Assembly: GCF_000685275.1 (NCBI RefSeq)
Contig: NZ_ARYK01000001.1
Location: 434,001-498,000, forward strand
Reading direction: 5' to 3'
Origin: Hyphomonas johnsonii MHS-2
GTDB taxonomy: Bacteria > Pseudomonadota > Alphaproteobacteria > Caulobacterales > Hyphomonadaceae
Length of the DNA stretch: 64,000 nt
In this document: in pieces, positions 1,476 through 57,994 of the stretch
How positions within the stretch are numbered: the first letter of the stretch is position 1
How the letters are laid out: each line of letters opens with the position of its first letter
Made by a program: the position numbers and the translations under genes
The notes under the pieces: model-generated
The model's database searches: none
What the model was told of the DNA's origin: nothing
Seen by the model: only the letters and a program-made list of their open reading frames with translations

Positions 1476-3104
1476 ATGCCCATGAGGACGCAACCGCGAT
1501 CATTCCTGACGACTGTGCTGGTTGCTGCGCTCTCTGGGTGTCTGATGGCATGCGCCCAGTCTGCAGACCGTTCCCCTCTTCCGACCGTCGAAGTACAACA
1601 GGGCAGGCTCGTTGGCGTGCGGGAGGGAGACGTCAATGTTTTCAGGGGCATTCCCTATGCGGCCGCGCCGACCGGGGAAGGGCGATGGAAACCGCCGTCT
1701 CCTCCGCCAGATTGGAGCGGCGTGCGCGATGCCACCGCGTTTGGCCCAAGTTGCATCCAGCCCGATGTGCCGGCGCGTAGCCTCTATTACGACCCGCCTC
1801 TGCAAACGTCGGAAGACTGCCTGACCCTCAACATCTGGGCGGGGCCGGAAGGCGTGAAAGCCCCGGTCATCGTCTGGATTCATGGCGGGTCCCTTCGGGT
1901 AGGCGGCAGCGCCCAGGCGATGTATGACGGGTCCGAATTCGCACGCCGAGGCGTGGTGTTCGTTTCCCTGAATTACCGTTTGGGTGTGCTTGGCTGGTTG
2001 GCGCACCCGAGCCTGAGCGCCGAATCGCCTGACGGAATATCCGGGAATTACGGTCTTCTCGATCAGATTTCCGCTCTTGAATGGGTGCGCGAAAATATAT
2101 CAGCTTTCGGGGGTGACCCTGCCAATGTCACGGTGATGGGCGAGTCCGCCGGAGCACTCAGTGTATCCTATCTTTTGGCCAGCCCGAACGCTGCAGGTCT
2201 TTTTCAGAAGGCGATCATCCAGAGCGCGAACAGCCGGAACTTCCCCGAGCTTGATAGTCCGGCGTACGGGCTGCCGCCTGCAGAGGGAAGGGGCGCATCG
2301 GTGTTGAGCGCACTTGGTCTCGATAGCATCGATGCGGCGCGGGGCGCCACCGCGCAGGACCTTGCCGACAAGGCGAGCTTCGTGCCGCAGGGCACGATCG
2401 ACGGTAAAGTACTTCCATTGCAGATCATTGATTCGTTCGACCACGGCATGTTTTCCAGGGTACCCATACTTGCGGGGCTCAATAGCGGTGAAGTACGTTC
2501 CCAACGCCTGTTCCTGCCGCGCATGCCGGATGACTATGAAGCGTCCATTGCCGCGCGCTATGGGGGGCTTGCTGACGATTTTCTTGCGCTCTACCCGGCG
2601 GAGGATGTGGGTGCCTCCATGCTCGCAACGCTGCGCGACGCGATTTATGGTTGGGCAACCGAGCGGATCGTGCGGAAGGAGAGGGAGGCGGGTCAGCCAG
2701 CCTTCATGTACGTATTCGACTATTGTTACCCGAACGCGCGCGAGGCTGGTTTATGCGCCTTCCATGCAAGCGAACTGCCCTTCGTGTTCGGCGCGCTTGA
2801 TGCCGAACGCCTGTCTGGCAACTGGCCGTACCCAGACGGCCAGAATGATCGGGCGATTTCGAACGCACTGCTGGACTACTGGACCTCGTTTGCTGCGACC
2901 GGACAACCAACAAGCGATCATGGGCCGGCATGGCCTGCCTATGGGAGTGACGAGGCCTACCTGGAAATCGGGCAGGAATTGGAAGTTCGTCACGATCCGT
3001 TTCCGGGTATGTTCGAACTGCATGAAGAGCTCGTTCGTCAGCGCAGGGCAGCCGGCGAGCCGTGGTTCCTGAATGTCGGGCTCGGGGCCCGGCCGCACGA
3101 ATAG
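1476..3104 (+). CDS. Type-B carboxylesterase / p-nitrobenzyl esterase family, secreted lipoprotein
   Basis: A 542-residue alpha/beta hydrolase expected to cleave carboxylic esters outside the cytoplasm. The N-terminus is a lipoprotein signal ending in the lipobox LMAC (Cys about residue 26). The nucleophile lies in GESAGA (Ser about 224), the oxyanion segment is HGGS instead of the usual HGGG, the acidic residue probably sits in GLNSGEVR, and the catalytic His in FHASELPFVFG. An ATG six bases downstream (MRTQ) is an equally possible start; GAAGG precedes both. The gene follows the acyl-CoA synthetase closely, consistent with one transcript for taking up an ester substrate. The natural ester is unknown. 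Confidence 0.93.
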   Translation: MPMRTQPRSFLTTVLVAALSGCLMACAQSADRSPLPTVEVQQGRLVGVREGDVNVFRGIPYAAAPTGEGRWKPPSPPPDWSGVRDATAFGPSCIQPDVPARSLYYDPPLQTSEDCLTLNIWAGPEGVKAPVIVWIHGGSLRVGGSAQAMYDGSEFARRGVVFVSLNYRLGVLGWLAHPSLSAESPDGISGNYGLLDQISALEWVRENISAFGGDPANVTVMGESAGALSVSYLLASPNAAGLFQKAIIQSANSRNFPELDSPAYGLPPAEGRGASVLSALGLDSIDAARGATAQDLADKASFVPQGTIDGKVLPLQIIDSFDHGMFSRVPILAGLNSGEVRSQRLFLPRMPDDYEASIAARYGGLADDFLALYPAEDVGASMLATLRDAIYGWATERIVRKEREAGQPAFMYVFDYCYPNAREAGLCAFHASELPFVFGALDAERLSGNWPYPDGQNDRAISNALLDYWTSFAATGQPTSDHGPAWPAYGSDEAYLEIGQELEVRHDPFPGMFELHEELVRQRRAAGEPWFLNVGLGARPHE

Positions 3105-3117
3105 GTGTCCCGCCGGA

Positions 3118-4728
3118 CTAGTCCTGGCCAGCCTTGTTCGGTGGGATGAACGTCATTTCCGTTTCGTAGGTGTCGATCCAGTTTTCGGGCGGAAGCGGCA
3201 GTGATCGGCTATCGTTTGACCGGCCGGCAGTGAAGGCAGGTTGCGGTTCCGCGGTGCGGACCTGTTCCAACCAGAAAACGCCATCATAAACGCCGCTATT
3301 CCCACGGGTCGCGACCCAGTCGATATCGCCATCATCATCTATGTCCACAGGGATAAAGGCGTCATACATCCCGCGCACGCGCCGCGATATGTCATGGCGC
3401 CGCCAGGTTGCGCGGGCATCTCCCGGGTTCTCGAACCATGCAATCCGGCCAACGGTAGAGGCCGCAGTCACGCGCGCATCATCTTCATCGCGCGACGCAC
3501 CGGAATAGGCACCGAGCAGAATGTTGAGTCCGGAATAACCTCCCGTGATCACATCAAGGTCGCCGTCACTATCGATGTCTGCCAGCGCGATACCGGCCAC
3601 GATGTCCGGCAGCGTGTCGCCGATGCGGAAAAAGGTCCAGGGTTCGTCGAGCCGTTCAGGTTGTTTCAGCCAGCCCAGCCCTGCCATCAGTGCGCTGCCC
3701 GCGATCGGTTGTGGGGTTTCGTGGACGGCCAGTACAAGATCCTTGCGTTCGTCGCCGTCCAGATCCGCAAAGACCGACTGGAAGGCGCTGGAGGCCCCGT
3801 GCCAGCCTTCAGGGATGGCAATGCCGGGCGCGATGATGATGGGGTGCGCGTTTACGCTGATGCCGTGTTCAGCCCTCGTATCGACTGTTTCGAGGATCGC
3901 CATTTCAAAGCGCAGGCGCGCTGCGACCAGGACATCCATGTCGCCGTCATCGTCAATGTCGACCGGCATCGCCGTATTCGGCACGACTTCCTGCGATAGT
4001 ATCTGTTCCTGCCAACTCGACTGCAGGAGCGGGTCTCCCGTGAGCCGGAACAGCGACGTCGGGCGGGCTGCGCTGGGTAGAAGTGGATCGATGATGTCAG
4101 CTGTGCCCTTGTTGGCAGCGAGGATATCCATGCGCCCATCCTGATCCATATCGGCCATGAACACGCGGAGCCAGGAGCCACGCTTCTGCGTAATGGCCGG
4201 GATGATCCGTGGCCAGGGGGCGGTGCGGGGACGCTGGCCCGGGTTCTGGACGTAAAGGAGGTGAGCCTCCTCGCAGGCCGCCATGAGATCGAGCCATCCG
4301 TCACCGTTTATGTCGCCAATCGCGACATCTTCAATCGCAGCAACATCGTCGCCTTCCGCGATGGTGATGTTTTCCCAAATGTCGGGGTCGTGCGTACCAA
4401 AAGCGATGCGCAGATGGTTGGAATCCTCATGCACCGATACGACATCCAGATACCCGTCCCCGTCAATATCCGCTACTGCGAGACCGTCACCGCCCCGGAT
4501 GGCGGTTCCACCATTCGTCTGCTGATCATCGATCAGGTGTTCTCGCCATGAAATGTAAAGTCCGTCCTCCGTCCGCGCTTTGGTGGGCGTGTCACTGACT
4601 GTGAGATGCGGCAAGCCGGTGATGTCCGGGCCGGCAGCCTCCGGTGCCTGGCAAGCCGCGACCGCTAGCAGGGCCGACCCGATCAACCCGGTTCCGTAAT
4701 ATCCTGTTCGCTTCGTTTCGGGTTTCAT
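3118..4728 (-). CDS. FG-GAP/VCBS-repeat beta-propeller lipoprotein
   Basis: A 536-residue predicted lipoprotein: the signal sequence ends LLAVAAC. The body carries seven calcium-loop motifs of the form D-x-D-x-D-G (for example ADIDGDGYLD, GDINGDGWLD, ADMDQDGRMD, VDIDDDGDMD), the number expected for a seven-bladed FG-GAP propeller. Such domains bind Ca2+ and mediate surface binding or hold substrates; a precise role is not known. The start ATG overlaps the stop of the MFS gene by four bases (ATGA), so translation is coupled and the start is well fixed. The pairing suggests a surface or periplasmic partner of the transporter. Confidence 0.88.
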   Translation of the reverse strand: MKPETKRTGYYGTGLIGSALLAVAACQAPEAAGPDITGLPHLTVSDTPTKARTEDGLYISWREHLIDDQQTNGGTAIRGGDGLAVADIDGDGYLDVVSVHEDSNHLRIAFGTHDPDIWENITIAEGDDVAAIEDVAIGDINGDGWLDLMAACEEAHLLYVQNPGQRPRTAPWPRIIPAITQKRGSWLRVFMADMDQDGRMDILAANKGTADIIDPLLPSAARPTSLFRLTGDPLLQSSWQEQILSQEVVPNTAMPVDIDDDGDMDVLVAARLRFEMAILETVDTRAEHGISVNAHPIIIAPGIAIPEGWHGASSAFQSVFADLDGDERKDLVLAVHETPQPIAGSALMAGLGWLKQPERLDEPWTFFRIGDTLPDIVAGIALADIDSDGDLDVITGGYSGLNILLGAYSGASRDEDDARVTAASTVGRIAWFENPGDARATWRRHDISRRVRGMYDAFIPVDIDDDGDIDWVATRGNSGVYDGVFWLEQVRTAEPQPAFTAGRSNDSRSLPLPPENWIDTYETEMTFIPPNKAGQD

Positions 4729-8079: not shown

Positions 8080-9075
8080 ATGACGTCAGAGCGCATGGAC
8101 TGGGACAATCTGCGCGTATTCCGTATCGTCGCGGAACTCGGCAGCATGAGCGCGGCGTCCGTGCGGCTCGGTGAATCCCCACCGACTATTGGACGCAAGA
8201 TCGACGACCTTGAAAAAAAGCTGAACACACAGCTATTCGTCCGGTCGACACGCGGCGTCGAACTGACTGATGCCGGTAAAGTTGCACTCAGCCATGCCCA
8301 TTCCATGGCCGAGGCGGCGAAGATGATCGACCAGCAGGCGTCCAACAAGGACCAACCGGTCGAAGGGTCGATCACGCTGGCGACCGGCGACGGCCTCGGG
8401 CCATACTGGGTTGCGCCTCGCCTGCCACAATTCCAGGCGGCGAACCCGCGCATACAGCTGAAAATGATCGTCAGCGAGGAGGCGCCGGATGTCGGGACCG
8501 GAGAGGCTGATATCTCGATCCGGTTCTCGGAGCCCAAGCAGCACGATGTCATTTCTCGGAAGCTGGGCACGCTTCACTATATCAGTTTCGCATCGGCTGA
8601 CTATCTGGCCGAGAATGGCGAACCGCGCAGCATTTTCGAATATTTCAAGCACCGCTGCATCCTGCACCAGGGGTATGTGAACCAGATCGAGCGGTGGGCG
8701 CCGAAGATGTCCGAGCTCAAGAAGATGGTGAACTTCGCCTTCGTGAGCAATTCGGGCAGCGCGATGATCGAGGTCTGCAAGAACGGTGGCGGCATCGCCC
8801 TGCTGCCATCCTATATCGGCACGGTTGCGCCGTCCCTCGTGCCCCTGGAATTGCCGGAAGTTGCACCGATCCAATTCTGGCTGACCTATACCGAGCGGGT
8901 ATGGCGCATGCCGCGCGGACGGGTGGTGCTCAACTGGTTGCAGGAGATATTCGAGGCCGAGGATGCATTCTGGTTCGAAGCACAGTTCATCCACCCGAAC
9001 AGGGCTGCGGACCGGCACGCGGCATTGAAATCGATCGCTGAGGCCCAGGCCCTATCCGGTGGCGAGGGCCTTTAG
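8080..9075 (+). CDS. LysR-family transcriptional regulator
   Basis: A LysR-type regulator of about 331 residues. The N-terminal winged helix-turn-helix begins MDWDNLRVFRIVAELGSMS and continues SPPTIGRKIDDLEKKLNTQLFVRSTRG; the rest is a periplasmic-binding-protein-like effector domain. The start could be ATG 8080 or ATG 8095 (MDWDNL, the usual family start); neither has a strong Shine-Dalgarno. It is not divergent from an obvious target, so its regulon is unknown. The last 24 bases overlap the 3' end of the opposing Xre gene. Confidence 0.9.
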   Translation: MTSERMDWDNLRVFRIVAELGSMSAASVRLGESPPTIGRKIDDLEKKLNTQLFVRSTRGVELTDAGKVALSHAHSMAEAAKMIDQQASNKDQPVEGSITLATGDGLGPYWVAPRLPQFQAANPRIQLKMIVSEEAPDVGTGEADISIRFSEPKQHDVISRKLGTLHYISFASADYLAENGEPRSIFEYFKHRCILHQGYVNQIERWAPKMSELKKMVNFAFVSNSGSAMIEVCKNGGGIALLPSYIGTVAPSLVPLELPEVAPIQFWLTYTERVWRMPRGRVVLNWLQEIFEAEDAFWFEAQFIHPNRAADRHAALKSIAEAQALSGGEGL

Positions 9076-9447
9076 CACGCGCGCCATCGAATCCAGTTTT
9101 TCCAGCGACCGCGTCCGGTTGATCCAGTCGTGACATTCGGCGCGAATGCGCGCTGCCGGGTCGTTGACCGACGCATCGTCTTCTGAATCATCCTCGAAAA
9201 GATCGGCAATCGGCACCCGCAAGGCTTCGGCGACCAGCGACAGCATCCCGGCGCTGAGACGGTTGGTGCCTGTCTCGTACTTCTGCAACTGTTGATGGCT
9301 GATTCCGAGTTCGGCGCCAAGCTCGGCCAAGGTACGGTTCTGGCTGATCCGGAGTGCGCGAATCTTGCTTCCAACCATCTGATCGACCCGGGTCGGGGCG
9401 CGGGAACTCGACTGTCTCTGTTCGTTTTGCACTACAATTACCTTCAA
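9052..9447 (-). CDS. Xre (Cro/CI-type) helix-turn-helix regulator
   Basis: 131 residues from a TTG start preceded by GAGGGC. The HTH_3 domain covers roughly residues 25-85 (GSKIRALRISQNRTLAELGAE, then ISHQQLQKYETGTNRLSAG, then LVAEALRVPIADLFED). A short acidic linker and a C-terminal helix pair follow. An ATG at 9378 (MVGSKIRAL) is an alternative start but lacks a ribosome binding site. It converges on the LysR gene with a 24-base overlap of coding ends. Target genes cannot be told from context. Confidence 0.85.
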   Translation of the reverse strand: MKVIVVQNEQRQSSSRAPTRVDQMVGSKIRALRISQNRTLAELGAELGISHQQLQKYETGTNRLSAGMLSLVAEALRVPIADLFEDDSEDDASVNDPAARIRAECHDWINRTRSLEKLDSMARVLKALATG

Positions 9448-9623
9448 TTTCAGCCCTCATGGTTTCTCGCTCTGGATGTTTAAGCAAGACGACCAGTACC
9501 TAAAAAAATGAAGGATGAAATCGGTTAGTCAGAGAAAGCGTGGCAAAGCTGCCATCCATAGGCGAAATTCGCCTCGATCCAGACACCTCTGGTTTCATCG
9601 CCCAAAAATCCACCACATGCAAG

Positions 9624-53654: not shown

Positions 53655-53752
53655 GGCCAAGGCCCTACATCAGCTGACCATCCAGGGGATTGCCAGGGCA
53701 GGGCGCGCGATATGCGTACAGGCCGGCCCGGGCACCGAACAAGGAATTTTCC

Positions 53753-55150
53753 ATGCCAGACAAGAACTTTGACTACGACCTCTTCGTGATCGGAGGCGGT
53801 TCCGGCGGCGTGCGTGCCGCACGCCTGGCGGCGCTGACGGGGGCGAAGGTCGCTGTCGCCGAGGAATACCGCATGGGCGGCACCTGCGTGATCCGGGGCT
53901 GCGTGCCGAAAAAGTTCATGGTCTATGCCAGCGGCTACGGGAAACATATCAGCAAGGCGAAGGGGTACGGCTGGACGGTCGGCGACGTGTCCTACGATCA
54001 CGAGGTGTTTTCCTCCGCCATGCATGCGGAGGTCGATCGCCTTTCGGGGATATATCATCGCAACCTCGTCAATGCCGGCGTCGAAGTGTTCGAAGAGCGC
54101 GCCGAGTTTGTCGATGCAACCACGCTGCGCCTGAAGACCAGCGGCAAGAAGGTGACGGCCGCCAAGATCCTGATCGCAGTCGGCGGCCACCCCTGGGTTC
54201 CTTCGCCAGAAGAATTGCCGGGCGTCGAGCATACGATCACGTCAAACGAGGTCTTTCATCTCGAAACGCTTCCCAAGCATCTTGTCATTGCCGGCGGCGG
54301 CTATATCGCCGTCGAGTTTGCGCACATCTTTGCCGGCCTCGGCGTCAAGACCTGCCTGGTCTATCGCGGTGATACGGTGCTGCGCGGCTTCGATGAAGAT
54401 GTCCGCGTCGTCGTGCATGAAGGCCTGAAAGAGGCCGGCGTGCGGGTCATCACACAGACCGTGTTCGACAAGATCGAAGACACGGGTGAAGGCGACTGCA
54501 ACCTGCGGGTCCACCTTCGCAACGGGCAGCACGTGGACGCCGACGTTATCATGATGGCCGTCGGCCGCAGACCGAACACGTCCGGCCTCGGATGCGATGC
54601 CGCCGGCGTCGCGCTCGACAAGAACGGCGCGGTGATCGTGGATGAATGGTCGAAGACGAACGCCGCGAATATCTGGGCCGTCGGTGACGTCACCGACCGG
54701 GTCGCGCTGACACCGGTCGCGATCCGTGAGGGCCACGCATTCGCCGAAACGGAATTCTACGACAAGCCCTGGCATTTCGACCATACGGACATCCCGACAG
54801 CCGTGTTCTCACAGCCCGAAGTCGGAACGGTCGGCCTGACCGAAGCACTGGCCCGCAAGCAGTTCTCCGAGGTCGATATCTACAAGACGCGGTTCCGACC
54901 GATGAAGAACATGCTGAACGGCGATACGAACCGGGTCTTCATGAAGCTCGTGGTGAAGGCAGACGACCAGCGTGTGGTCGGTGTTCACATTGTCGGAGAA
55001 GACGCGGGCGAGATGATCCAGGCGATCGGCATTGCCATCAAGATGGGCGTGACCAAGCCGGATTTCGATCGCACGTGCGCCGTCCACCCGAGCGTCGCTG
55101 AAGAGCTGGTCACAATGCGCCAGAAATGGGTGCCGGAAGTGGCGGGCTGA
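53753..55150 (+). CDS. gor: Glutathione-disulfide reductase
   Basis: 465 residues. FAD-binding GGGSGGVRAARLAA, the redox disulfide in GGTCVIRGCVPKK (two Cys five apart), the NAD(P)-binding GGGYIAVEFAHIFAGLG followed by an Arg-type segment, and the C-terminal catalytic His in CAVHPSVAEELVT. The VIRGCVPKK pattern is the glutathione-reductase form rather than lipoamide dehydrogenase. AAGGA precedes the start. It is convergent with the TIR-ParA gene, 18 bases away. Confidence 0.96.
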   Translation: MPDKNFDYDLFVIGGGSGGVRAARLAALTGAKVAVAEEYRMGGTCVIRGCVPKKFMVYASGYGKHISKAKGYGWTVGDVSYDHEVFSSAMHAEVDRLSGIYHRNLVNAGVEVFEERAEFVDATTLRLKTSGKKVTAAKILIAVGGHPWVPSPEELPGVEHTITSNEVFHLETLPKHLVIAGGGYIAVEFAHIFAGLGVKTCLVYRGDTVLRGFDEDVRVVVHEGLKEAGVRVITQTVFDKIEDTGEGDCNLRVHLRNGQHVDADVIMMAVGRRPNTSGLGCDAAGVALDKNGAVIVDEWSKTNAANIWAVGDVTDRVALTPVAIREGHAFAETEFYDKPWHFDHTDIPTAVFSQPEVGTVGLTEALARKQFSEVDIYKTRFRPMKNMLNGDTNRVFMKLVVKADDQRVVGVHIVGEDAGEMIQAIGIAIKMGVTKPDFDRTCAVHPSVAEELVTMRQKWVPEVAG

Positions 55151-55168: not shown

Positions 55169-56467
55169 TCAGGCCTCGACGAGGGCCTTCAGCTCCATGC
55201 CGATGGTCTTGAGGCTTTCGCGGATGGCCTTGAGCCCGCCGCCCCGGCCGGAATGGATCAACAGCTGCTTCCAGGGCGGCTCGCCCTCTTTCGGGGCCTT
55301 CACCACAAGGTGGCCGGACCGCGGCAGGGCGGACTTCAACAGCGCCTTGGACAGGGCGAAGCCCGCCTTGGCGTCATACGCGCCATTGCGGGCATCCGCT
55401 TCGAAAGTCGACTGCTCGCTACGCCCGACAGCGTTGAAGAGAACGGACAGGGCAGGCCGCTTGCCGGCCTCGACCTGTTCCTCGATCACATGGTTCAGCA
55501 GGCGCACGCCGCGCAGGGAATAGATGTCCGGATGCATCGGTGCCAGCACGCGGTCGGCGGCCTCCAGCGCGCACCGGGTCAGGAAGGTGGCGTTGGGATT
55601 GGTGTCGAACACGATCAGGTCATAGTCGCTGCGGTAGTGATCGATCATGCGCAGGAATTGCGACTTCACCTTGTCCAGTGCCGCAGCGTCCGAGGCGAAG
55701 GCGTATTTCGAGATCTCGAACTGCCCTGAAATGAGGTCAAGCCGCCCGCCGGGGCTGTCTTCGCCCATCAGGTCGTGGACGAGTTCCGCGCGCGGCACGG
55801 CCGCAAACGGTTCGGTCGACAGGCTCAGCCAGCGTTCGCCAGGGCTGACCACGTCGCGGGCATGCAGGCGCGAGCGCTCGAACAGCGAGATGACCGACCG
55901 GTCCGCCGCCGCGCTGGCATCGGCATACTCCATGTCGAAGAAGGCCTGGGTGAGATTATATTGCGGATCGAGGTCGACCAGCAGGACACGCCCGCCGAGC
56001 GCGCTTTGCCACGCGCCGAACACCTGGCTGGAGATGGTCGTCTTGCCGACCCCGCCCTTGAGGTTCATCACCGCAAGCACGGGGCATTTGCGCTTGTAGG
56101 CGGCCTGGACTTCCGCCACGAGCTGGCGGGTACCGTCCGGCATGGTCGACGAGAGCCGGAGGTGGGGCTGGACCTCGTGCTTGAAAAAGCCGTTCAGGCG
56201 GGCCTTGTCGATCTGGAAGGGGATCAGGCGCAGGTTGCGCGCCTTGGCCCGGGTCACGTCGGCGCGGACCGTCTTCGAGCGCACCGAACTTGCCGAAACC
56301 AGCACGATCATCGCGAAGGCATCGTCGATCGCTTGGTCGGCGGCCGCGCGATCGTCCTTGTCATTCGGGGCATACCAGTCGGGTATTGCCGCCATCCGCA
56401 GGGATTCATGAATTTCCAGCAGCGCATCAAGATCGTCTGACGAGTGGCTGATATAGACATGCGACAT
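55169..56467 (-). CDS. TIR domain-ParA/Soj ATPase fusion protein
   Basis: 432 residues from MSHVYISHSS. Residues 1-105 have a bacterial TIR pattern: VYISHSSDDLDALLEIHESL, then IPDWYAPNDKDD, then AIDDAFAMIVLVSASSV and LRLIPFQID. Where NADase-type TIRs have a catalytic Glu, Asp70 (VRADVTRAKA) seems to stand. Residues 128-400 are a full ParA ATPase: deviant Walker A KGGVGKTT (137-144) with signature Lys137, DLDPQYNLT (165-173), Walker B LIVFDTNPN (284-292). The C-terminus is a likely amphipathic helix. There is no parB, plasmid or phage gene nearby. Weak AAGGA upstream. It probably uses an ATP-driven ParA cycle to place or switch a TIR module; function is unknown. Confidence 0.88.
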   Translation of the reverse strand: MSHVYISHSSDDLDALLEIHESLRMAAIPDWYAPNDKDDRAAADQAIDDAFAMIVLVSASSVRSKTVRADVTRAKARNLRLIPFQIDKARLNGFFKHEVQPHLRLSSTMPDGTRQLVAEVQAAYKRKCPVLAVMNLKGGVGKTTISSQVFGAWQSALGGRVLLVDLDPQYNLTQAFFDMEYADASAAADRSVISLFERSRLHARDVVSPGERWLSLSTEPFAAVPRAELVHDLMGEDSPGGRLDLISGQFEISKYAFASDAAALDKVKSQFLRMIDHYRSDYDLIVFDTNPNATFLTRCALEAADRVLAPMHPDIYSLRGVRLLNHVIEEQVEAGKRPALSVLFNAVGRSEQSTFEADARNGAYDAKAGFALSKALLKSALPRSGHLVVKAPKEGEPPWKQLLIHSGRGGGLKAIRESLKTIGMELKALVEA

Positions 56468-56563
56468 TAGGTTATCAGTCCTTCGGGCGGGCGGCCGTAT
56501 TGCCGTTACTAAAGGGCTTGAGCCCGATTCCACCAGCTTTGTGCTGTGAAAATGTGGTGAAAC

Positions 56564-56592
56564 TTGAGCAAGCGCGGTCCATGTGATTTATG
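56564..56592 (+). promoter_or_regulatory. Probable promoter of the class II DAHP synthase gene
   Basis: TTGAGC (56564-56569), 17-base spacer, TTTATG (56587-56592); the start codon would follow about 20 bases after initiation. Confidence 0.4.
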
Positions 56593-56617
56593 CTGCACTG
56601 CCACGGAGCGATTGAAC

Positions 56618-57994
56618 ATGACCTGGACCCCTTCAGACTGGCGGAAACTGCCTGCCAAACACATCCCGTCGGATTACCCCGACGCTGCAGCACTCGCTGC
56701 TGTTGAAACGCGCCTGAAGGGATACCCGCCGCTGGTGTTTGCCGGCGAGGCCCGGCGCCTGAAACAGCGCCTCGCAGAGGTCGCTGCCGGCAAGGCATTC
56801 CTGCTGCAGGGCGGCGATTGCGCCGAGAGCTTCAAGGAATTCCATCCGGACAATATCCGCGACACATTCCGCGTCATCCTCCAGATGGCGGTTGTGCTCA
56901 CGTTTGCGGCGGCCAAGCCGGTCGTGAAAGTCGGCCGGATTGCCGGGCAGTTCGCCAAGCCGCGGTCCGAGCCGATCGAGACCATCGACGGCGTCACGCT
57001 GCCATCCTATCGCGGTGACAATATCAACGGCATGGATTTCACGCCCGAAGCGCGCAACCCTGACCCGGAACGCCTGATCCAGGCCTATTCGCAATCGGCT
57101 GCCACGCTCAACCTGCTGCGCGCGTTCAGCAATGGCGGCTATGCCAGCCTTGCCAACGTGCATAGCTGGATGCTGGGCTTTGTCGATCGCAGCCCGCAGG
57201 GCGAGCGCTACGAACTGCTGGCCGACCAGATTTCCAAGTCACTCGACTTCATGCAGGCCGTCGGTCTCAACGCCGAGACCGTGCCGCAAATGGCGCAGGT
57301 TGAATTCTACACCAGCCACGAAGCGCTGCTCCTCGGCTATGAGGAAGCGATGACCCGAGTCGATTCCACCTCGGGCGAATGGTACGACACCTCCGCCCAC
57401 ATGCTGTGGATCGGGCACCGCACCCGGCATGTCGACGAGGCGCATGTCAATTTCTGCAAGGGGATCAAGAACCCGATCGGCATCAAGTGCGGGCCAGGCA
57501 TGGAGCCGGACGAGCTTGTGCGCCTGATCGAGACGATCAACCCGCAGGACGAAGCTGGCCGGATCACACTGATCTCGCGCTTCGGGTCCGACGGTGTCGC
57601 CAAGGGCCTGCCGCCGCTGGCACGCGCCGTCAAGAAGAGTGGCCGCACGGTTGTCTGGTCCTGTGACCCGATGCACGGCAACACGCTGAAGACCGAGAGC
57701 GGGTTCAAGACGCGCCCGGTCGACCGTATCCTCTCCGAGGTGCGCCAGTTCATCGACGTGATGAATGCCGAAGGCTGCTATCCGGGCGGCGTGCACTTCG
57801 AGATGACCGGCCAGAACGTCACCGAATGTCTCGGCGGCGCGCAGGCGATCTCCGAGGCGGACCTCTCCAGCCGGTACCACACGCATTGCGACCCGCGTCT
57901 GAACGGTGAGCAGGCGCTGGAGCTGGCCTTCCTGGTGGCGGAGAAGCTGCAGGCACTCGGCAACGGCAAGGACGCTGCACGCAAGGCCGGCTGA
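56618..57994 (+). CDS. 3-deoxy-7-phosphoheptulonate synthase, class II
   Basis: 458 residues. It joins PEP and erythrose-4-phosphate, the first step of the shikimate pathway. Plant/Mycobacterium-type (class II) motifs are [12 protein letters not shown] near residue 66, [29 protein letters not shown] and [11 protein letters not shown] with metal-ligand residues. [12 protein letters not shown] is the usual start of the alphaproteobacterial form. It is divergent from the TIR-ParA gene across 150 bases. Confidence 0.97.

Follow-up and report, generated by a model that had tools for sequence, protein, structure and literature searches.

A TIR domain fused to a ParA-type ATPase is conserved beside a DAHP synthase gene in Hyphomonadaceae and may act as a non-enzymatic switch

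Introduction

Studies of TIR domains deal with immune enzymes, and those of ParA proteins with the movement of cargo. ParB and McdB bind their ATPases and turn them over, and certain ParA proteins act as repressors at their own promoters. In CpaE/TadZ proteins, a flavodoxin-like N-terminal domain precedes a ParA-like ATPase.

For the TIR protein SpbK, NADase activity is reported to depend on TIR self-association (PMC12847820). Among the literature matches listed, the nearest published text to the protein described here is Kaur et al. 2020 (PMC7159879), which describes, in actinobacterial peptide-processing systems, an AP-ATPase that resembles a TIR-bearing one and has an additional MinD/ParA-like domain. 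In their titles and abstract openings, the matches listed, mostly open-access, do not describe any protein that joins a TIR domain to an intact ParA, nor do the retrieved parts of PMC10669575, PMC6963756, PMC11271474, and PMC7075850 (a TIR survey) describe the fusion. A first annotation of the locus from the DNA letters alone (the sequence-only reading) could not name this combination.

Results

The window, i.e., the whole stretch of DNA that was analysed, comprises 64,000 nucleotides of the Hyphomonas johnsonii MHS-2 chromosome. The gene of interest and its neighbors are as follows.

55169..56467, minus strand: TIR-ParA fusion gene, 432 aa, ATG start at 56467, stop included
53690..55150, plus strand: glutathione reductase gene (gor), convergent neighbor, NCBIfam match over cut-off
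56618..57994, plus strand: class II DAHP synthase (DAHPS) gene, divergent neighbor, NCBIfam match over cut-off

The plus-strand reading of 55169..56467 is interrupted by stops and the open frame is found on the minus strand, at the coordinates given by the sequence-only reading; the strand that it left unstated is supplied by the frame analysis. The start ATG falls at the same aligned position in 63/63 listed loci (own included, some genomes twice). NCBIfam equivalog models over cut-off identify neighboring genes for glutathione-disulfide reductase, class II DAHP synthase, RpiA, and GlmU. Together with synteny, these neighbors agree with the earlier placement of the gene between gor and the class II DAHP synthase gene, in a housekeeping chromosomal setting. 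A mobile origin in the window was considered and is rejected by synteny.

The protein divides into two domains, with the following features.

56153..56467, minus strand: TIR domain, residues 1-105, Pfam match residues 4-88
56258..56260, minus strand: Asp70, in the slot of the catalytic TIR glutamate according to TIR-profile/PDB alignments
55172..56089, minus strand: ParA/Soj-type ATPase domain, residues 127-432
56036..56059, minus strand: deviant Walker A motif KGGVGKTT with signature lysine K137, residues 137-144

The N-terminal match is to Pfam TIR_2 (PF13676), at 35.8 bits against a cut-off of 28. TIR_2 exceeded its cut-off in 11 of 12 scanned fusion proteins, L100 barely (28.4), and L048 fell below (25.9 versus 28). 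A TIR profile built from the window protein and ten relatives matched 58 distinct PDB sequences at E≤0.001, headed by the bacterial TIR proteins 7uxr (1.2e-10) and 3h16 (3e-10). SARM1, AbTIR, and plant TIRs rank below these two, and the Cat1 and SPARTA TIRs are also among the matches. Most of the 58 are named TIR, SARM1, Toll-like, or plant resistance, a few are named otherwise (9m0n, 4lzp), and none carries a receiver name. When the window protein was searched alone against the PDB, the best 60 of 63 matches were only ParA, MinD, and ArsA/Get3-like ATPase chains, so the TIR assignment draws on the Pfam match, the profile of relatives, and the fold search. For the latter, a model of the TIR domain by itself (mean pLDDT 70.4) was used; four other models reached 41-54, and the full-length model, at pLDDT 48, was too poor for use. 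The fold search placed the SpbK TIR (9phb) first, with a probability of 1.00, a TM of 0.68, and an E of 9.4e-3, followed by the SPARTA TIR and MAL. Nucleoside 2'-deoxyribosyltransferases, which have a related fold, are interleaved from rank 4, and no match reached E 0.001. The structural comparison proposed for residues 1-110 is thus led by a TIR, but at an E of only 9.4e-3 and with a model of pLDDT 70.

These data bear on whether the protein could be CpaE/TadZ-like, with a receiver-type pseudo-domain mistaken for a TIR. Receiver domains do occur lower down in the fold search, which is what such a reading would draw on. It is opposed by the TIR_2 matches in 11/12 fusions, by the lack of a receiver name among the 58 PDB matches, and by six of the seven scattered copies (L064, L092, L094, L095, L097, and L104), which were scanned and carry classic TIR domains at 60-73 bits. 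The N-terminal domain is by profile a TIR and not a receiver, and we regard this alternative as highly improbable.

The ATPase half matches Pfam AAA_31 over residues 130-333 (E 6.9e-26), and the nearest solved ATPases to the window protein are Soj and ParA. K137, K142, T143, D165, D167, and D288 are conserved in 100/100 aligned fusion copies, every one of which therefore displays the deviant Walker A, signature Lys, and Walker A' and B Asp of the ParA/Soj group. No HTH was matched by Pfam in the window protein. The proposal that a TIR module is joined to a complete ParA/Soj ATPase with intact Walker motifs is in this way upheld by Pfam, the TIR profile, and motif conservation.

To describe the distribution of the fusion, genomes of the same family (Hyphomonadaceae) and of other Caulobacterales were surveyed. 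The full-length fusion was found at this place in 64 Hyphomonadaceae genomes, in a single frame. A frameshift or mis-assembly, which would have split the protein into two separate genes, is ruled out by these 64 copies. In one of them, L031, a TAG removes the last few residues. At E 1e-12, 69 of 105 Hyphomonadaceae genomes were matched: the 64 full-length copies, two that are truncated at contig ends and were left out of the 64 (G077 and G083), one scattered fusion (G093, L064), and two matches to ParA only (G103 and G110). In G113, a fusion fragment lies beside DAHPS at a contig end (L138). The gene is present in 41/42 listed Hyphomonas genomes; the one that lacks it (G098) is 83% complete and also lacks a DAHP synthase match. 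In genus g15 it is present in 19/29 listed genomes. Among gene-less genomes of g15 and g19, gor directly abuts DAHPS in 15/16, and G073 has another gene there.

Beyond Hyphomonadaceae, 398 sampled Caulobacterales genomes yielded fusions in 30 genomes of family f3 and one of family f4, so that the survey called for by the sequence-only reading finds the architecture in three families of the order, plus scattered copies with classic TIR domains. Seven aligned f3 proteins share 24-29% identity with the window protein. The gene stands beside DAHPS on the opposite strand in 63/63 assessable Hyphomonadaceae loci, 28/29 f3 loci, and 1/1 f4 locus. Seven loci lie away from DAHPS, namely the six named above, of which L064 belongs to Hyphomonadaceae, and L190, the f3 exception. 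Outside Caulobacterales, no full-length fusion was found among E 1e-20 matches in 385 class and 398 phylum genomes sampled, a search in which a few Caulobacterales were included and only four candidates were scored in most genomes, so that uncommon or diverged fusions could have escaped it.

A tree was built from 46 of the 100 fusion copies, and the program flagged long branches in it. There, the Hyphomonadaceae copies form one clade (99/97) that is sister to f4 (100/99), with L048 as its first branch. The scattered copies do not form one clade. Because the Hyphomonadaceae copies are one clade, we read the absences in g15 and g19 as losses, and the gene is dispensable in some relatives. Median pairwise dN/dS is 0.21 for ParA (888 pairs) and 0.26 for TIR (878 pairs), by a crude method and from non-independent pairs; the TIR value indicates that this domain is still under selection. 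We conclude that purifying selection acts on this chromosomal gene, which has been inherited vertically. Its conserved place beside DAHPS may simply reflect slow rearrangement.

No full-length match of the window protein was found in plasmids (0/1717 matching records cover 80%) or phages (0/9 matching records), and with L094, L104, and L092 as queries the counts were 1/596 and 0/1139 for plasmids and 0/16 for phages. The single plasmid match has 24% identity over residues 81-424, so its TIR is not whole; one plasmid record of that search at 60-80% identity was left outside the assessment. In viral contigs, the best 80 of 337 matches start at residue 105 or later.

The gene could alternatively be a neutral relic with a decaying TIR, important for its ParA part alone or not at all. 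Its clean absence from several relatives and a TIR more variable than ParA would fit this, yet TIR and ParA share one open frame in 64/64 Hyphomonadaceae copies and the median dN/dS of the TIR is well below 1. We therefore consider decay improbable.

The intergenic region was analysed for regulatory sites.

56468..56617: divergent intergenic region, 150 bp, shared by TIR-ParA and the DAHP synthase gene (ATG 56618)
56526..56530: GANTC site (GATTC) in this region

In Hyphomonadaceae, the region is conserved at about 100-165 bp. At least one GANTC occurs in 41 of 49 distinct intergenic sequences (own included), many at the same aligned place, a count that is no statistical test given that the sequences are mutually related. 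We take the site at 56526-56530 to be a possible CcrM/GcrA cell-cycle site. No CtrA box was found in the 49 sequences.

This arrangement raises the question of whether TIR-ParA controls its divergent neighbor DAHPS, or the supply of aromatic amino acids, via the shared region. Such a role would account for a divergent DAHPS neighbor in three families and for the conserved intergenic region in Hyphomonadaceae. However, the median distance to DAHPS in f3 is 1462 bp and the pair is still kept, and a shared gene occurs in 9/20 loci examined, among them L093, where it is MgtC/DUF4010 and lies between TIR-ParA and DAHPS. In addition, the conserved block resembles DAHPS promoter elements by eye, no HTH was matched, and DAHPS remains where TIR-ParA is absent. 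Taken together, regulation of DAHPS seems quite unlikely. The L093 gene, at 8182-9501 of that locus, encodes a membrane protein.

To assess catalytic potential, the slot of the TIR glutamate was compared across copies. In the printed profile alignments, Asp70 aligns with the Glu of known TIRs, in line with the earlier suggestion that Asp70 takes the place of the catalytic residue. Among the 64 Hyphomonadaceae copies beside DAHPS, the slot holds D in 44, Q in 19, and E in one (L048, which also has no partner gene). The 29 f3 loci hold E in 24, D in three, A in one, and H in one, and E is found in 6/6 scattered copies (L064 included) and 1/1 f4. Thus, E occupies the slot in 31/36 copies other than the Hyphomonadaceae copies beside DAHPS. 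The Hyphomonas protein, with Asp70, lacks the catalytic Glu of TIR NADases, and the counts of D44, Q19, and E1 make NADase activity unlikely, as judged from sequence. The first annotation had raised the possibility of binding or signaling instead of NADase activity, and D or Q in 63/64 copies at the DAHPS locus supports a non-NADase reading.

A second gene distinguishes the families. In f3, a homologous small gene of 128-141 codons directly follows TIR-ParA in 27/28 assessable loci, overlapping the TIR-ParA stop by 4 bp in 24 loci; L191 has no small gene and L202 ends at a contig edge. A partner profile built from 14 f3 loci matched 13/14 assessable f3 loci outside its training set at E 1e-20 or better. 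The f4 locus and six scattered loci have a small gene at the same downstream place. The f3-only profile supports its homology in L104 (8.6e-8), L091 (5e-5), L092 (8e-4), and, weakly, L095 (0.0075), and leaves the small genes of L094, L064, and L097 unsupported; homology outside f3 would accordingly appear secure only in part. None of seven scanned partner proteins reached a Pfam cut-off. We predict that the small downstream gene likely encodes a ParA partner.

In Hyphomonadaceae, no partner gene, nor the adjacent ParB or partner of a ParAB partition system, was found at the DAHPS-side locus (0/62 assessable, best E 0.63; two of the 64 were left out for too little downstream sequence). In the window, only 18 bp separate gor from the TIR-ParA stop, too little for a partner gene to follow. 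When six Hyphomonadaceae genomes were searched with a partner profile, nothing significant came up (best E 0.087), which is a weak test for a short divergent protein, and the partner may have moved elsewhere in these genomes. The description "without ParB" therefore applies to the Hyphomonadaceae locus but not to f3 and the scattered relatives. Since L048 kept its Glu, has no partner, and is the first Hyphomonadaceae branch, partner loss may precede Glu loss, an order drawn thinly from one lineage.

Several other small genes and ParA genes were noted. L064 encodes a second small protein (2948-3349, 133 aa) 4.4 kb before the fusion, which resembles the partner by eye and has no Pfam match. In g16 (L166, 4691-5907) and in L102 (8663-10132), a stand-alone ParA and a small gene lie inside the gor-DAHPS interval. 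The small proteins, of 122 and 151 aa, both end in LFDY. These genes are a second ParA/partner pair at this spot. Elsewhere on the chromosome of the window's genome, a stand-alone ParA (L164, 5061-6454) has a 174-aa downstream reading frame.

Links to defense come mainly from the scattered copies. L104 has AbiTii, another TIR protein, and an integrase as neighbors, and a predicted pPIWI-associating nuclease is encoded 3.4 kb from the L092 fusion. In the other four scattered loci (L190 excluded), neighbors were judged mainly by eye, and those of L094 include one TIR_2 match below cut-off (23 versus 28 bits). The L104 and L092 neighbors and the classic TIRs fit a conflict-system origin. The window's own genome (G000) encodes three other TIR_2 proteins over cut-off (L160, L161, and L162, on contigs C14, C13, and C2). 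PADLOC gave one weak match (PDC-M28B, E 0.0014), to the ATPase part, and identified no known anti-phage system.

The fusion could accordingly be a live anti-phage or anti-plasmid system, in which ParA would sense something on DNA and gather TIRs that signal or kill; the non-NADase Hyphomonas TIR would then recruit another effector, e.g., the organism's own other TIR proteins. TIR domains do function in bacterial immunity, and the scattered relatives (Glu in 6/6, strong TIR matches, the L104 and L092 neighbors) as well as the three additional TIR_2 proteins are in keeping with this. Nonetheless, the D in the Hyphomonas Glu slot, vertical descent, housekeeping neighbors, presence in 41/42 listed genus genomes, and the single weak PADLOC match, to the ATPase part, stand against it. 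On balance, we find present-day defense rather unlikely.

Discussion

Our current hypothesis, held with about even confidence, is that a former, perhaps defensive, TIR-ParA/partner module is now a partnerless, non-enzymatic chromosomal ATPase switch of regulatory or positioning use. Based on the deviant Walker A motif, ATP-driven ParA dimerization would pair two TIR domains, perhaps at the nucleoid. Elsewhere in the group, the small partner encoded by the next gene would attach to the ATPase and drive its turnover. With no partner gene at the locus and the catalytic Glu lost, the TIR of Hyphomonas and its family would most likely be a surface that docks on a target or cargo or that self-assembles, and not an NADase.

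A broader proposal is offered more tentatively, as a possibility clearly less likely than not. TIR-ParA and its partner could constitute a Caulobacterales system of two genes, so far undescribed, with a positioning ATPase that gates TIR assembly. An NADase-type conflict module would have been domesticated beside DAHPS in Hyphomonadaceae, where it would have lost the partner before the Glu and ended up as a spatial switch without enzymatic activity. If true, an immune domain would here have been co-opted, in bacteria, for the housekeeping organization of the cell. The fusion is kept by descent, and its natural forms with and without the Glu and the partner offer a comparison for asking whether ATP-driven dimerization can control TIR assembly and how an immune-type domain enters ordinary cell biology. 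The small downstream genes are, in turn, a candidate new family of ParA partners.

With ParA-ParB and McdA-McdB, the fusion shares the deviant Walker A, the Walker A' and B Asp, and, in relatives, an operon-like small gene. It differs in its added N-terminal TIR, in partners of which the seven scanned reach no Pfam cut-off, and, in Hyphomonas, in having no adjacent partner. The TIR NADase defense proteins SpbK, SPARTA, Cat1, and Thoeris ThsB also carry a TIR domain, and SpbK is the top fold match, whereas in the Hyphomonas protein the Glu is replaced, the TIR is fused to ParA, and no defense neighborhood is present. CpaE/TadZ proteins are alike in joining a flavodoxin-like N-terminus to a ParA-like ATPase, but the N-terminus of the fusion is by sequence profile a TIR and not a receiver. 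Lastly, in the AP-ATPase effectors, the MinD/ParA-like domain is described as inactive (PMC7159879) and an AP-ATPase is present, whereas in the fusion the ParA motifs are intact and ParA is the sole ATPase.
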